Positions 32,014-48,136 of a stretch of DNA of 64,000 nucleotides are shown piece by piece. How positions within the stretch are numbered: position 1 is the stretch's first letter; each line of letters begins with the position of its first letter. Position numbers and translations under genes: made by a program. The DNA lies in contig JANYDA010000009.1 in NCBI GenBank assembly GCA_025360005.1, positions 1-64,000 of the forward strand, given 5' to 3'. Origin of the DNA: Fibrobacteria bacterium (GTDB lineage: Bacteria > Fibrobacterota > Fibrobacteria > UBA11236). The notes beneath the pieces are model-generated. The model saw only the letters and a program-made list of their open reading frames with translations. It was not told the DNA's origin and did no database searches.

Positions 32014-33066
32014 TCACCGTTCCGTTTCAAACCAGCGCACGGCTCCCTGGTATATCCCATTCCGGAACGTTCCTTTGGCGTCCACCGCCCGCGAACCGCC
32101 TTTCGATCCTGCTCCGAAGGCTTCCGGCCCCGGCCTGCGCAGAATGCCCGTGGTAACCGGCATGGCTATATTGGACATCCGCATGCTTTTCGTGACGGTG
32201 ATCGCGATGGGCGATGGCAGGTTTTTACCCAGATAGGCCGCATTCACCAGGTAATCGCCGGGTTTCAACCCGATGGAAAAATGGCCATCCGCCGCCGTCA
32301 TGCGCGTACCCGCAGTGGAGTTGTCGGATTTTTTCAAAACGGTCACCGTCACCCCCATGAGAGAATCGCCCGCGCCCTCGCTGACCACGGTTCCGCCGAT
32401 TTGGAAAGCGTCCTTCATGGTTTGATCGGGAAGGTCCAGGGGCTTTGAGGTTATTACCGTAGCCGTAAAGGGAGCCGGAGCCGTGAAGGGAGGATAGGAA
32501 AGGCTGACGGAATAGGTACCGGGATCGACTTGAAACCTGTACCCGCCCGAAGCGTCGCTGGTATCCTTTCCCATGATCTGGCCCCCGTTTTGTTTGCTTA
32601 TGGTGGCGATTACGTTTTCCAGGGAATCGCCGTCCGTGGTAAGGACAACCCCATTGACCTCCACTACCGTGATCACGGATGTTCCGCAGGCGGAATTGTC
32701 GGTGACGAAGCTGCCCGTGACCACGGATTTCGTCCTGCCTCCCCAAGTGCCGTAGAACTTGTAGGCGTATTTCGTGTTGGGGGCAAGGCCGGTGACCACT
32801 TGATTCTTAACCCCGCTGGCGCGGCTGCTCACGCCGGAGCATTTCCCCGGAGTGCCTATCCCATAACAAAATGTCCGCGAACCGTTGTGCCGCCCTTCCG
32901 TCCAGGACAGCGTGGCGCCCGCCAGCGTGGTTTTTACCCCTACCACCTTGCAAGAGGCGCCGGTGGTGGCGTCGCAGCTGGCGGCCTCGGCGGCGCGGGA
33001 CAGCGTCCAGGCGCAGAGACCCGTCATCAGGCAAATGAAAGCGGCGGCGGAATTCTTGCTGATCAT
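32014..33066 (-). CDS. secreted protein with FN3-like and carboxypeptidase-regulatory-like domains
   Basis: A 350-residue protein starting at ATG 33066 after CGGAGCCC, with a signal peptide ending near AAEAAS. Residues about 28-125 are an FN3-like domain (GATLSWTEGRHNGSRTFCYGIG ... VVTGLAPNTKYAYKFYGTW). Two Ig-like CarboxypepD_reg modules follow (VVEVNGVVLTTDGDSLENVIATIS...DASGGYRFQVDPGTYSVSLS; IGGTVVSEGAGDSLMGVTVTVL...ADGHFSIGLKPGDYLVNAAY). The tail AKGTFRNGIYQGAVRWFETER is polar. It is the last gene of the minus-strand cytochrome locus, 22 bp after a cytochrome gene, and could be a surface partner or adhesin. Confidence 0.7.
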   Translation of the reverse strand: MISKNSAAAFICLMTGLCAWTLSRAAEAASCDATTGASCKVVGVKTTLAGATLSWTEGRHNGSRTFCYGIGTPGKCSGVSSRASGVKNQVVTGLAPNTKYAYKFYGTWGGRTKSVVTGSFVTDNSACGTSVITVVEVNGVVLTTDGDSLENVIATISKQNGGQIMGKDTSDASGGYRFQVDPGTYSVSLSYPPFTAPAPFTATVITSKPLDLPDQTMKDAFQIGGTVVSEGAGDSLMGVTVTVLKKSDNSTAGTRMTAADGHFSIGLKPGDYLVNAAYLGKNLPSPIAITVTKSMRMSNIAMPVTTGILRRPGPEAFGAGSKGGSRAVDAKGTFRNGIYQGAVRWFETER

Positions 33067-33088: not shown

Positions 33089-33877
33089 TTACTTGGGTTC
33101 CTGCTTGGGCGAATAACCACAACTGGAATCCACTTCGGGATTATGATCCAGGCTGGGGCATCCGGGCAATCCCTTGTCCTTGGAAGCCCATCGGTAGATC
33201 TTCTTGGGCGCATTGTGGCATTCGATGGCGGAGCAGCTCAGGTCCCGGGCGCGGTAGGCCGTCCGCGCGAGCCCGGTGTCCAGCACGATGTTGGGGGAAA
33301 ACTCCACATCGACGGAGCCGTTGAAGTGGTTCCCGGCCGTAAGCCAGGAAACCACCGCGCCGATTTTCGCGGCGGCATCCAAAAGCGAATCGACCTGATC
33401 CGAAGTCGCGGTAGCGCGCTCCAACGCATAGGGCAAGGGGAGGAAACCGGGAATGGAATCGATGCGGTAGATGGGATCGTTGGGCAATTTGTCCCGGGTG
33501 GCCCGCACATCCCCTTCCGTGCCCCAGAGGGTATCGTACCAATTATAGTTGCGGTGGGCGATGGACCCGAAGTGGCAATCCATACAAACGATGGCGCCGT
33601 TCTTCCTTTCATAGATGAACTTGCCTTGTACGCCTTCCCGGGTGTTGAAGGATTGCAGGTGGTAGGTATGGTTCACGTCGTGCAAGGGATAAGCGTGGCA
33701 ACTGGCGCAATCCGGACCCATGCGGGGCGCGGTGGAAGATGCGGTCAGGGCGGCCGCATCGGGTTTGATCCCTTCCAGGCAACCGCATAGCATGATTGCG
33801 ATAAGGAACAGGGTCGAGGCGGCTTTCAAGGGCGCGATTCGTGGGGGTTTCGACGCACTCATGGATTTGGATGCCAC
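33089..33877 (-). CDS. triple-haem c-type cytochrome lipoprotein (copy 1)
   Basis: A 262-residue protein with a lipoprotein signal (FLIAIMLCGC, lipid Cys33). Three haem motifs: CASCH (57-61), CMDCH (98-102) and a CX4CH motif, CSAIECH (215-221). CASCHAYPLHDVNHTYHL supplies further His residues as possible distal ligands. It is paralogous to the protein at 35667-36332, sharing HAYPxxxVNHxxHL and the CSAxxCH end. Predicted anchored in the membrane facing the periplasm or surface. It is separated from the DUF3570 gene by 288 bp with no ORF but a CCCGG/CCGGG hairpin (34101-34115). Confidence 0.85.
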   Translation of the reverse strand: MASKSMSASKPPRIAPLKAASTLFLIAIMLCGCLEGIKPDAAALTASSTAPRMGPDCASCHAYPLHDVNHTYHLQSFNTREGVQGKFIYERKNGAIVCMDCHFGSIAHRNYNWYDTLWGTEGDVRATRDKLPNDPIYRIDSIPGFLPLPYALERATATSDQVDSLLDAAAKIGAVVSWLTAGNHFNGSVDVEFSPNIVLDTGLARTAYRARDLSCSAIECHNAPKKIYRWASKDKGLPGCPSLDHNPEVDSSCGYSPKQEPK

Positions 33878-34165
33878 CTCGACCTCGGTTGGATAGAAAC
33901 CGCAAAGTTACCCCTTACCTTGGACGGGGGCCGTTTCGCGAACCGCAGGGCTTACCTTCGGCTGCGGTAATGATAGGCGGGATGGCATTCTCCGGCTTGA
34001 GACGGAACGCTTTACCCCAACAAGCGTACTCTGGCGCGTACGCCTCCGGAGGCCAAAAGGCCAGGGTCATTCGCAAGTTTGGAATCTTTTTAGGATTATA
34101 ACCCGGTAAGCCGGGCGAAGCGGGCATTCCGCGTGGATCGTCGGGACAAACCGGGCCAAGTCCGC

Positions 34166-35443
34166 TCAAAGATCGAAACTCAAACCAAGCATGAAGGTTC
34201 CCTCGGTATAGTTTTCCGTGCTGGGAAAAAGCTGGTAATGGCGGTAAGGTTGCGATGTTCCCCGATCGCCATAGGTATCCCGGATTCCGAAATCGTAGCT
34301 CAAATCGAACCGATCGGGCAGCCATGCATTTTCGTGCCAGGAGTCGAACAAAGGCGCGGCTATCTTGGCGCCCAATAACAGCGAAGAGAAAGGATAGTAC
34401 CGGATGTCCGCGGAGCGATAGAGCTCATCGCCTTGGTATTGGTCGCGGGCGAAGCCCGATTGGCTTTGCCGGTAACCGCGCGCGCGCAGCCGCAGATAGG
34501 TCCCTTCGCCGAAATACTGGTACCATTGCAGTTCCGCATCCTTGGAGTCCATCCCCCAGGTATCGATGTAGCGGCGCGCATTCAGCCGCAGCGAGCCCAG
34601 CAGGCCGCCGATACGGTAACCCTGCACAAGCTCCCCCGCCAAAGCCAGGCTGGTTTTTCTCCGGGGGACGTTTTCCTCGATGGCATAACCGTCCGCAAGG
34701 ATGACCGGGTTATATGGATGCCCCAGGTAACCGGAGGCGTGGATGCCGTTGAGGGTGAGGGAGGCCAAGGCCAGCGGGCTCAACACCTGGGTGGCGGAAA
34801 TCGACAAGGATTGGATTTGCTTCGCGCCGCCTTGATCGGCGAATGCGCCGCCCGGGTGGAAGTCGTCGAAGAACCAGGCCAGCACGGCGCCCAAGGTGGT
34901 ATTGCGTTCATTGAAGTCATGGGCGAGGGCCAGGGATGGGGAGTAGGAACGGTAGTCGGGTTCATCGCTGAAGTAGAACCCTCCCGTATAGACGCGGCCG
35001 CCTTGGCTGTAGGTCACGCTGGGGTTTTCCGAATGCCGCAATTCGCTTTTGGATGCGCCGCTGACGGCGTCGAAGGCGGGATCATTCCAGGGATTGGCGA
35101 AGGGCGTCCCGTTGGACTTGCGTTGCGAGGCGCCCGAGGTGGCATCCACCCCATGATCGCCGAGCTTTCCCGTAAGGTCGGCGCCCAAGCGGCGCGAGGC
35201 CCCGGATACGGCGTCGAATTCCTGATCCCATTGCAGGCTCCAGTCAGGGGAAAGCTTGTGGAAATAATCGAAGGCGGGCGTATGGTTCCAGACCTGGTTG
35301 CGATCCCAGTAATACATGTATTTGAAATCGAGCCGGTCCCCGGATTCTTCCGCGCGGGCGGGTATGGAAAGCGGGCCAGTCCCGATGGACAGGTAAACGG
35401 CGGCCGTGAGGATGCGCGCCGAATGCGGCGGCAGCTTCAACAT
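34166..35443 (-). CDS. DUF3570 outer-membrane barrel with three possible flavinylation motifs
   Basis: A 425-residue protein with a signal peptide (cleavage near IPARAEE). From about residue 145 it alternates like a beta-barrel (GGRVYTGGFYFSDEPDYRSYSPSLALAHDFNERNTTLGAVLAWFFDD...) and ends in an aromatic/hydrophobic strand, GTFMLGLSFDL. Residues 77-131 contain DAVSGAS (77-83), DATSGAS (100-106) and DAVSGAS (125-131). These resemble the D-x-x-SGA-T/S site where ApbE attaches FMN. DUF3570 is known from studies of extracytosolic flavin systems, usually with DUF4266 and ApbE. The start overlaps the DUF4266 stop by 7 bp. A role in carrying electrons across the envelope is inferred. Confidence 0.85.
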   Translation of the reverse strand: MLKLPPHSARILTAAVYLSIGTGPLSIPARAEESGDRLDFKYMYYWDRNQVWNHTPAFDYFHKLSPDWSLQWDQEFDAVSGASRRLGADLTGKLGDHGVDATSGASQRKSNGTPFANPWNDPAFDAVSGASKSELRHSENPSVTYSQGGRVYTGGFYFSDEPDYRSYSPSLALAHDFNERNTTLGAVLAWFFDDFHPGGAFADQGGAKQIQSLSISATQVLSPLALASLTLNGIHASGYLGHPYNPVILADGYAIEENVPRRKTSLALAGELVQGYRIGGLLGSLRLNARRYIDTWGMDSKDAELQWYQYFGEGTYLRLRARGYRQSQSGFARDQYQGDELYRSADIRYYPFSSLLLGAKIAAPLFDSWHENAWLPDRFDLSYDFGIRDTYGDRGTSQPYRHYQLFPSTENYTEGTFMLGLSFDL

Positions 35444-35670
35444 CCGCAGCCGCCGCCCGATCCCGAGCTTCCGCCCGCCGCGCCCTCCCGGCGCGGCAGG
35501 TTATGGCTTTCCAAACCCCCGCCCAGCGGATCGGGAGCGCGTTGCAGGATGGGATCGCTCAAGAATTCCCGGTCTTTTTGATGGACGCGGGCGCAACCGG
35601 AAAAGGCGGCGGCCACGGCCGCTGCCGCGCCGGCCATCACAACCAGTCTGCGGAAAGGGAGGCGTCTCAT
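35437..35670 (-). CDS. DUF4266 lipoprotein
   Basis: A 77-residue protein. Lipoprotein signal ends AAAFSGC (lipid Cys near 26). The mature part reads ARVHQKDREFLSDPILQ, then HNLPRREGAAGGSSGSGGGCGC. The REGaxGG...GGGCGC tail is diagnostic of DUF4266, which is almost always encoded beside DUF3570. The CGC end may bind metal or be modified. Its ATG overlaps the upstream cytochrome stop by 4 bp and its stop overlaps the DUF3570 start, so the three genes are translationally coupled. Confidence 0.9.
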   Translation of the reverse strand: MRRLPFRRLVVMAGAAAAVAAAFSGCARVHQKDREFLSDPILQRAPDPLGGGLESHNLPRREGAAGGSSGSGGGCGC

Positions 35671-36332
35671 TTGAGGCTGTTGTCCACGTTCAATCCTCCC
35701 AATCCCTTGGACGGCGCCGGCCAGCGGTAAGGGTCGTCATGCTTATGGCAGGCCACGGCGGAGCAGGTTTCCAGGGTGGGATCGTAGACGGCGCTCCGGC
35801 CCCGGTAGCGCGCGGTGTCGCTGTTCGCCGCGTCGAAGCGGATGTCCAGAACGCCGTTGAGATGATCCATCCCCGTCATCCATTCCTGCAGAAAGGTGAC
35901 GCGCAGGGTATCCAAGGGCACCGGGATGGGTCGATGGTGGATTAACGTGTCCACCCGCGCCAAGAGATAAGCGCCGCGGGCGATCGAATCCCGGAAAGAG
36001 GATCTGGTCCCGGCATCGTAAGCGGACGCCGATTGGCCGTGGGAATCGGCGAACACGCTGTCGTACAATGTCACGTCCTTTTCCCGCAAGGACGTCCTAT
36101 GGCAGTCCAGGCAGGTAATCGGTCCGTTACCCAGCTTGAGGCTGTCCGCGTGCAGGAGATGGAATTGATGGTTGACGCCGCCCACCGGATACGCGTGGCA
36201 ACTGGAGCAATCGGAGTTGACGGGAGAGGCTCCCGTACGGGATGCCAGGGAAGGTTCGTTGGGGATCCAACCCTGGCATCCCGGGAAAGCGAGCGAAGCT
36301 AAAAGCCAATAGATGCTGGAGCGGCGGGACAT
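35667..36332 (-). CDS. triple-haem c-type cytochrome lipoprotein (copy 2)
   Basis: A 221-residue paralogue of the cytochrome at 33089-33877. The lipoprotein signal ends LAFPGC. Motifs are CSSCHAYPVGGVNHQFHL, ITCLDCH and the CX4CH motif CSAVACH near the C-terminus. ATG 36332 is preferred over an upstream TTG. It is first in the minus-strand unit cytochrome-DUF4266-DUF3570 and would hand electrons to or from the flavin sites of the barrel. Between the second and third haem sites lies MTGMDHLNGVLDIRFD, matching copy 1's FNGSVDVEFS region, so the paralogy spans the whole chain. Confidence 0.85.
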   Translation of the reverse strand: MSRRSSIYWLLASLAFPGCQGWIPNEPSLASRTGASPVNSDCSSCHAYPVGGVNHQFHLLHADSLKLGNGPITCLDCHRTSLREKDVTLYDSVFADSHGQSASAYDAGTRSSFRDSIARGAYLLARVDTLIHHRPIPVPLDTLRVTFLQEWMTGMDHLNGVLDIRFDAANSDTARYRGRSAVYDPTLETCSAVACHKHDDPYRWPAPSKGLGGLNVDNSLK

Positions 36333-36392
36333 ACCCGGAGTAGGATACAAGCTACTGGAAGGTTGCGCCCGTGCGTTCCATCAGATCTCGAT

Positions 36393-46889: not shown

Positions 46890-48041
46890 TTACCTTCCCT
46901 CGCTGCAGCGTTCTACGCCCTGCATTTTCAGAATGCCTTCCAGGCCCTGCGATTCCAGGTAGCACAGGCGCGGCGCGCCCGCGCTGTCCACTGGCGCGGC
47001 TGGCGTTCCCGCGCCCGGTGCTCCCGTAGCTTGCGCGCCGGCGCCTATCTCGCGCATCCATACCGCTCTGGCGCCGAAGCGCCGCAACAGTTCCGCGCTT
47101 TTTTCCGGTCCCAGGATGAAGAGCGGTTTGGTCAACCTGTCGGCGAGCAGGCTGCTGGAAGCCAAAACGGTGACGGAGCAGTAGGGGCGCGCCGGCTTGC
47201 CGGTGCGCGGATCGAAAATATGGTGGTAGCGCACGCCGTCCCGGATGAAGAAGCGTTCGTAATCGCCGGAGGTGGAAACGGCCGAAGGATCCGCGAGCGT
47301 CAGATTGCCGGCCAAAGCATCGCCATGGCGGGGATGGCGGACGCCTACCTTCCAGGGGGCGCCGGGTTTCCGGCCGCCCACGCGCATGTCGCCGCCCGCC
47401 GTTACGATATGGTTGGGATAGCCTAGCGAGTCCAGGATGGCATGCATGCGATCGACCGCATAGCCTTTGGCAATCCCGCCCAGATCGAATACCACGCTGT
47501 CGCGCAGCAGGACCAGGCGGTTGTCGGCCAGGATCCGAAAGGGCGGACTGGATGCGGGATTACTGTCCTGCGCGGCCCCGAAGGCGGGGTTGCCGCGCAT
47601 CACGGCTTGCAGTTCCCGATCGGTGGGGACCCGGTTGGAATCCCCGCTCGCCAGGCCATAGGCGCGTTTCAGCAGATGCAAGGTTATATCGAAGCGGCCG
47701 GCGGAAGCGCCCGCCATTTCCGCCGCGGCTTTGAACACGGTCACGATTTCCGGATCCGCGGCCAAGGTGTCGCCCATCCGGCCTTGCAGCTTTTTCAATT
47801 CCGATCCGGGCAGATAGTCGCTGAACACCTGCTCCAGGCGCGCGCTCTCCCGCTCCAAAAGCGAGAATGCGGAATCCTCCGGGGCCTGGGTTGCGCCATG
47901 GGCGTAAAGGATGGCGGAAAAATCCGTGTCCATGCCGAACCAGTGATGGTCCGCTTTGGCGGGCTGGCGCGAGCAGCCGCTGAGCAACAGCAATGCGGAT
48001 AAAACAAAGAAGTTGCGGTCGGCTACGGATCTTTTAGGCAT
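46890..48041 (-). CDS. apbE: FAD:protein FMN transferase, lipoprotein
   Basis: A 383-residue protein; ATG 48041 is favoured because GGAAGG lies about 7 nt upstream. The lipoprotein signal ends LLLLSGC. ApbE motifs: FGMDTDFSAILYA, LEQVFSDYLPGSELKKL, VVFDLGGIAKGYAVDRM (FAD/Mg site), IVTAGGDMRVGG, AVSTSGDYERFFIRDGVRYHHIFDPRTGKPA and VLASSSLLADRLTKPLFILG. It transfers FMN covalently to Thr/Ser of partner proteins outside the cytoplasm. The closest candidate substrate in the window is the DUF3570 barrel with three SGAS motifs, 11 kb away. Confidence 0.93.
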   Translation of the reverse strand: MPKRSVADRNFFVLSALLLLSGCSRQPAKADHHWFGMDTDFSAILYAHGATQAPEDSAFSLLERESARLEQVFSDYLPGSELKKLQGRMGDTLAADPEIVTVFKAAAEMAGASAGRFDITLHLLKRAYGLASGDSNRVPTDRELQAVMRGNPAFGAAQDSNPASSPPFRILADNRLVLLRDSVVFDLGGIAKGYAVDRMHAILDSLGYPNHIVTAGGDMRVGGRKPGAPWKVGVRHPRHGDALAGNLTLADPSAVSTSGDYERFFIRDGVRYHHIFDPRTGKPARPYCSVTVLASSSLLADRLTKPLFILGPEKSAELLRRFGARAVWMREIGAGAQATGAPGAGTPAAPVDSAGAPRLCYLESQGLEGILKMQGVERCSEGR

Positions 48042-48136
48042 TTCCATTCCTTCCCCGGCGGGGACCACGCCGACGCCCCGGCCGCTTTAAGCCCTTAAGC
48101 GAATGGGATGGAATTTAGCAAGTAAATGGGGCGGAT

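Follow-up and report, generated by a model that had tools for sequence, protein, structure and literature searches.

The window analyzed here is a 64,000-nucleotide stretch of a Fibrobacteria bacterium genome (contig JANYDA010000009.1, positions 1 to 64,000). It carries five consecutive genes on the minus strand that encode, in order, a three-heme c-type lipoprotein (CytA; 35667..36350), a small DUF4266 lipoprotein (35437..35670), a DUF3570 protein presumed to be flavinylated and to form an outer-membrane barrel (34166..35443), a second three-heme lipoprotein (CytB; 33089..33877), and an exported, FN3-like protein that contains two CarboxypepD_reg domains (32014..33066). ORF starts were called mechanically, and the ATG start of cytA is probably at 36332. 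As the initial annotation had stated, the first three genes overlap (cytA and DUF4266 at 35670/35667, DUF4266 and DUF3570 at 35443/35437). Gaps of 288 bp and 22 bp separate DUF3570 from cytB and cytB from the FN3-like gene, respectively. A promoter scan of the locus gave hits at chance level, with no promoter seen in the 288-bp gap, and terminator-like sites numbered 7 (4.4 expected). Outside the cluster, an ApbE lipoprotein is encoded on the same strand (46890..48068; PF02424, about 218 bits).

The motifs are more than chance occurrences: the pattern D..[ST]GA[ST], searched in all window ORFs of at least 60 aa, occurs three times in DUF3570, once in the FN3-like gene (33066-32014), and in no other ORF. 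The span first proposed (33089-36332) captured a real cluster containing, as claimed, two cytochromes with three heme motifs each. However, it should extend to 32014 and take in the ApbE gene (48068-46890); both this gene and the FN3-like protein with its fourth motif had been overlooked.

The DUF3570 protein was recognized by PF12094 (108.5 bits against a cut-off of 25) and by its homologs, including a 67%-identical protein in the Fibrobacterota MAG RYN_348. Its N-terminal part contains the three segments reported earlier: DAVSGAS at residues 77-83 (motif 1; 35195..35215), DATSGAS at residues 100-106 (motif 2; 35126..35146), and DAVSGAS at residues 125-131 (motif 3; 35051..35071), all on the minus strand. 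Among 18 close homologs, site 1 reads [ST]GAS in every case, and site 3 follows [ST]GA[ST] in 17, the exception having SSAS. Only three loci, which form a single clade (support 100/100), have the insert that contains site 2, and the site reads SGSS at one of them. Variability among homologs, which had been named as a possible weakness of the flavin reading, is thus seen at site 2 but not at sites 1 and 3. The DUF3570 protein of C. luteolum is an ApbE substrate in which both motif sites were shown to be flavinylated (PMC8238504), and the canonical window sites 1 and 3 match these two, making Ser83 and Ser131 predicted FMN sites. Because site 2 is limited to the insert, the family feature would be two flavins. 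A third, on Ser106, is possible in this protein but is not a conserved property as had been proposed, and three SGAS sites were rejected as a defining character of the family.

DUF3570 C-termini end like those of outer-membrane barrels. The barrel assignment itself was not borne out here, with a weak strand-pattern statistic (mean z of 0.9) and an AlphaFold model of low confidence (pLDDT of 29, two-sequence alignment). Searches against solved structures returned no significant match for DUF3570 or for CytA, and a search for a plasmid relative of DUF3570 found none.

The DUF4266 protein matches PF14086 (44.5 bits against a cut-off of 27) and ends in GGSSGSGGGCGC, a conserved C-terminus that contains the CGC tail noted previously. 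Its association with DUF3570 as a partner in ApbE-dependent flavinylation, also noted previously, agrees with PMC8238504. The ApbE gene lies 11 kb from DUF3570 and is the single ApbE match in the whole genome; read by eye, its product keeps the family segments SGDYERFF and HHIFDPRTG. Across the phylum, ApbE was detected in 11 of 13 genomes with DUF3570, compared with 50 of 168 Fibrobacterota genomes overall, counts that ignore relatedness. ApbE was not found in the two remaining DUF3570-bearing genomes, G157 and G003, both incomplete MAGs that offer weak evidence of absence. G157, which is 95% complete, has several DUF3570 loci without an ApbE match, through either missing sequence or another modifying enzyme.

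The heme motifs of CytA are CSSCH and CLDCH (CX2CH) followed by CSAVACH (CX4CH), and its Cys25 aligns with the lipobox cysteine of its relatives. CytB reads CASCH, CMDCH, and CSAIECH, with the lipobox LCGC. The earlier description of both as CX4CH cytochromes therefore holds for one motif per protein, the other two being CX2CH. Both proteins match multiheme families weakly in profile searches. Against TIGR01904, the CxxxxCH/CxxCH domain of Geobacter, CytA scored 25.0 bits and CytB 14.7 bits, each below the curated cut-off of 27. CytA shares with this domain a C-terminal CX4CH motif but falls under its cut-off and differs in having three hemes in a fixed layout. Alignment of 17 cytochromes revealed an invariant lipobox cysteine, invariant Cys and His residues in the three heme motifs, and three further invariant histidines, which would permit bis-His ligation of three hemes. 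Close relatives of CytA have three heme motifs. In the more distant genomes G034, G035, and G003, the cytochrome has four CX2CH motifs and, at its C-terminal end, one that is CX5CH, CX4CH, or degenerate; in the G044 cytochrome, the third motif is CX2CH. Cytochrome-assembly proteins are present. Strong CytA relatives occur in nine Fibrobacterota genomes, all nine of which have DUF3570 (relatedness ignored).

A survey of DUF3570 neighborhoods, as had been suggested, showed that the pairing recurs across the phylum. It covered 168 Fibrobacterota genomes, most apparently MAGs, in which absences are weak evidence. DUF3570 was detected in 13, and a multiheme cytochrome gene directly precedes DUF4266 at 21 of 32 DUF3570 loci in 12 genomes (relatedness ignored), which rules out accidental adjacency; in G165, the two halves of the arrangement lie on two contig ends. 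Thioredoxin follows DUF3570 at many sister loci and DsbD at some. At G162:C20, a single run encodes cytochrome, DUF4266, DUF3570, thioredoxin, DsbD, an FN3 protein, and ApbE; ApbE was located inside a cytochrome-DUF4266-DUF3570 cluster once. The genome under study (G000) has four DUF3570 loci: the window locus (C21), C62 (cytochrome-DUF4266-DUF3570, two motifs), C47 (DUF4266-DUF3570-thioredoxin-DsbD, two motifs, no cytochrome), and C28 (thioredoxin-DUF4266-DUF3570, one motif). Thioredoxin and DsbD genes are missing from the window cluster, and both are present at C47. We also sampled a second phylum most heavily (80 genomes) and read 20 loci, which mostly showed thioredoxin-DUF4266-DUF3570, with or without ApbE, and lacked a CytA-type cytochrome; at four of the 20, a larger two-heme protein is encoded upstream.

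In the window FN3-like protein, DATTGAS (32953..32973, minus strand) comes straight after the signal peptide, at the mature N-terminus as read by eye, and Ser38 is the predicted FMN site. All 12 aligned family members have D[AV]x[ST][GAST]AS at this position, and the motif accounts for three of the alignment's seven invariant columns. Three of four further proteins outside the alignment (three genomes; E values of 7e-32 to 3e-7) also have it, one in G021 and two in G027, and the G022 protein reads DAVSQAT. A chance origin of the motif was rejected: coding-like ORFs totaling 234,265 residues contained it 69 times, nearly always in DUF3570, and the motif was missing from the eight weaker, generic FN3-type loci that we read. 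Eleven genomes encode a motif-bearing member, and ApbE was detected in 10 of these, the exception being G027 (69% complete); among all 168 genomes, the number with ApbE is 50 (relatedness ignored). In G164, a family member is encoded near DUF4405, a membrane cytochrome class linked to flavinylation (PMC11334425).

Pfam matches in the window protein were of the fn3, Ig-like, and CarboxypepD_reg types, and none was to FMN_bind, DUF2271, or another known ApbE substrate domain; AlphaFold modeling of the mature protein alone gave a pLDDT of 32. The protein thus differs in domain from known substrates such as FMN_bind and DUF2271 proteins (PMC8238504, PMC11334425) while sharing their DxxTGAS motif, and it bears this motif N-terminally, a placement at which engineered flavin tags perform best (PMC12052999). 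The published consensus for flavinylation is D-x-x-[S/T]-G-A-[S/T]; a Gly-to-Ala change about halves the modification, which is most efficient on terminal tags (PMC12052999). The window protein is therefore a surer target than the several family members in which Ala, Ser, or Thr replaces the Gly. From these sequence features, we consider the FN3-like family a candidate new class of ApbE substrate. A search of the openly licensed literature for ApbE, flavinylation, and fibronectin jointly found no report. Other family loci are L210:4816-5931, L211:5433-6530, L212:5186-6271, and L056:9353-9916. At L233 (G027:C103), an FN3-like protein with DVVSSAS and DAISSAS adjoins a second with DAVSSAS.

By sequence, CytB is of the C47-cluster type; in the tree, it groups on a long branch with C47-type cytochromes with moderate support (86/79). 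A small FN3-like exported protein is also encoded in the C47-type clusters G159:C90, G156:C68, G155:C37, and G162:C20. The C47 cluster of the genome under study lacks both the cytochrome and the FN3 gene that its relatives have, and cytochrome-FN3 pairs without DUF3570 occur at G000:C57 and G155:C198. Because of this pairing, the lone pairs, and the lack of both genes at C47, cytB and the FN3-like gene look like a separate module that now lies beside the window DUF3570. The initial proposal of CytB as a second heme partner of DUF3570 is thus doubtful, since both sequence and neighbors place it with the FN3-like protein. The same evidence allows a stronger reading, that two independent modules merely adjoin here, with cytA-DUF4266-DUF3570 having its partners elsewhere and cytB-FN3, displaced from C47, still serving that cluster. 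We hold this to be a tenable but tentative alternative: the long branch of CytB may mark an old paralog, and the 288-bp gap, in which no promoter was seen, is compatible with co-expression.

Collectively, our results favor, with some reserve, an envelope electron-transfer module that joins covalent FMN and c-type heme and in which electrons probably run through flavins and hemes attached to exported proteins. We infer its cofactor loading, order and direction of electron flow, location, acceptor, and physiological role as follows. ApbE would move FMN from FAD onto the last serine of DUF3570 motifs 1 and 3, possibly also onto that of motif 2, and onto Ser38 of the FN3-like protein. Electrons would come from a thiol donor, a DsbD_TM protein and a TlpA/AhpC-type thioredoxin such as those encoded in sister clusters, and might then pass through the DUF4266 CGC pair to the DUF3570 flavins and on to the three hemes of the adjacent lipoprotein cytochrome. 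CytB and the FN3-like protein would form a second, separable heme-flavin unit, now downstream. The system would likely serve to reduce an acceptor located at the outer membrane or beyond it. A broader formulation has about an even chance of being correct: a hybrid flavin-heme system of Fibrobacterota in which ApbE modifies both DUF3570 and the FN3-like class, each paired with a three-heme CX4CH lipoprotein, and in which the FN3-like motif acts as a natural N-terminal tag.

The thioredoxin and DsbD_TM genes of the sister clusters could instead point to periplasmic thiol-redox chemistry or iron assimilation. In this view, electron exchange between thioredoxin/DUF4266 and DUF3570-FMN would serve to reduce disulfides or ferric iron, with the cytochrome as only a side entry or exit. 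A VIT1 iron transporter gene in 25 DUF3570 clusters elsewhere (PMC8238504) fits this alternative. However, at this position in the phylum the cytochrome gene is more constant than DsbD, and we regard the alternative as rather unlikely. Less probable again is the conduit across the outer membrane first proposed, here taken as a single complex like Mtr or Pcc in which three barrel FMNs link periplasmic and outer three-heme cytochromes. Two lipoprotein cytochromes do flank the window DUF3570, DUF3570 C-termini are barrel-like, and two cytochrome genes also occur at G157:C125 and G156:C48, though both are upstream there. Against a conduit, most sister loci have one cytochrome, three hemes are few to span a membrane, and the unconserved middle motif, the affinities of CytB, and the unconfirmed barrel described above all count. 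In encoding a putative outer-membrane protein together with multiheme lipoproteins, the window locus resembles MtrCAB and Pcc (OmbB-OmaB-OmcB), but we found no sequence relation to them, the window partners have three hemes rather than 8-12, and the cofactor sites lie on the presumed barrel itself. That the SGAS segments are structural and carry no flavin in this organism is highly improbable given their exact fit to the published motif (PMC12052999) and the modification of both equivalent sites in C. luteolum (PMC8238504), even though G157 has DUF3570 genes and no detected ApbE.

The favored flavin-heme module resembles the DUF3570/DUF4266/thioredoxin-like/DsbD system of PMC8238504 in the two conserved DUF3570 motifs, the C-terminal CXC of DUF4266, the genomic ApbE, and the thioredoxin and DsbD of sister clusters; in that system, thioredoxin-like and DsbD genes are typical of the cluster but not universal. 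It differs in the multiheme lipoprotein encoded before DUF4266 in Fibrobacterota and, at the window cluster, in lacking thioredoxin and DsbD and in having an extra motif, a second cytochrome, and the FN3-like protein. PMC8238504, the single paper naming DUF3570 in the openly licensed literature searched, treats it as a confirmed flavinylation substrate of uncertain role; its passages on DUF3570 name DsbD, thioredoxin, DUF4266, and ApbE as partners, with no cytochrome pairing given, in keeping with the earlier suggestion that the pairing may be undescribed. On this comparison, the window locus appears to be a heme-carrying version of the known DUF3570 flavin system, of which earlier notice is possible beyond the openly licensed literature searched. 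A cytochrome at a fixed operon position across the phylum names a directly testable redox partner of DUF3570. Discussion so far has mostly treated flavinylated proteins and multiheme cytochromes as substitutes for one another, whereas in this system they would act in series. With its conserved DxxTGAS-type motif at the terminus, the FN3-like protein would represent a further class of substrate, of interest for genomes that have ApbE but no recognized substrate.

Several other genes recur in these neighborhoods. A two-heme protein of 630-790 aa is encoded directly before thioredoxin-DUF4266-DUF3570 in two phyla (L008:9613-11856, L127:3336-5408), with similar genes in L045, L047, L050, L062, L128, L129, and L130; the two tested proteins match PF18582, the hydrazine synthase alpha middle domain. 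Three genomes, each from a different phylum, encode small proteins with one CX4CH and one CX2CH motif (CSATNCH...CYQCH type) next to thioredoxin/DUF4266/DUF3570 (L082:8800-9096, L048:6308-6658, L081:8770-9735). In G162, NusG_II and Hpre_diP_synt_I genes follow ApbE (L056:10887-12456), and similarly sized and placed genes come after DsbD at G000:C47 (L010:4330-6013).
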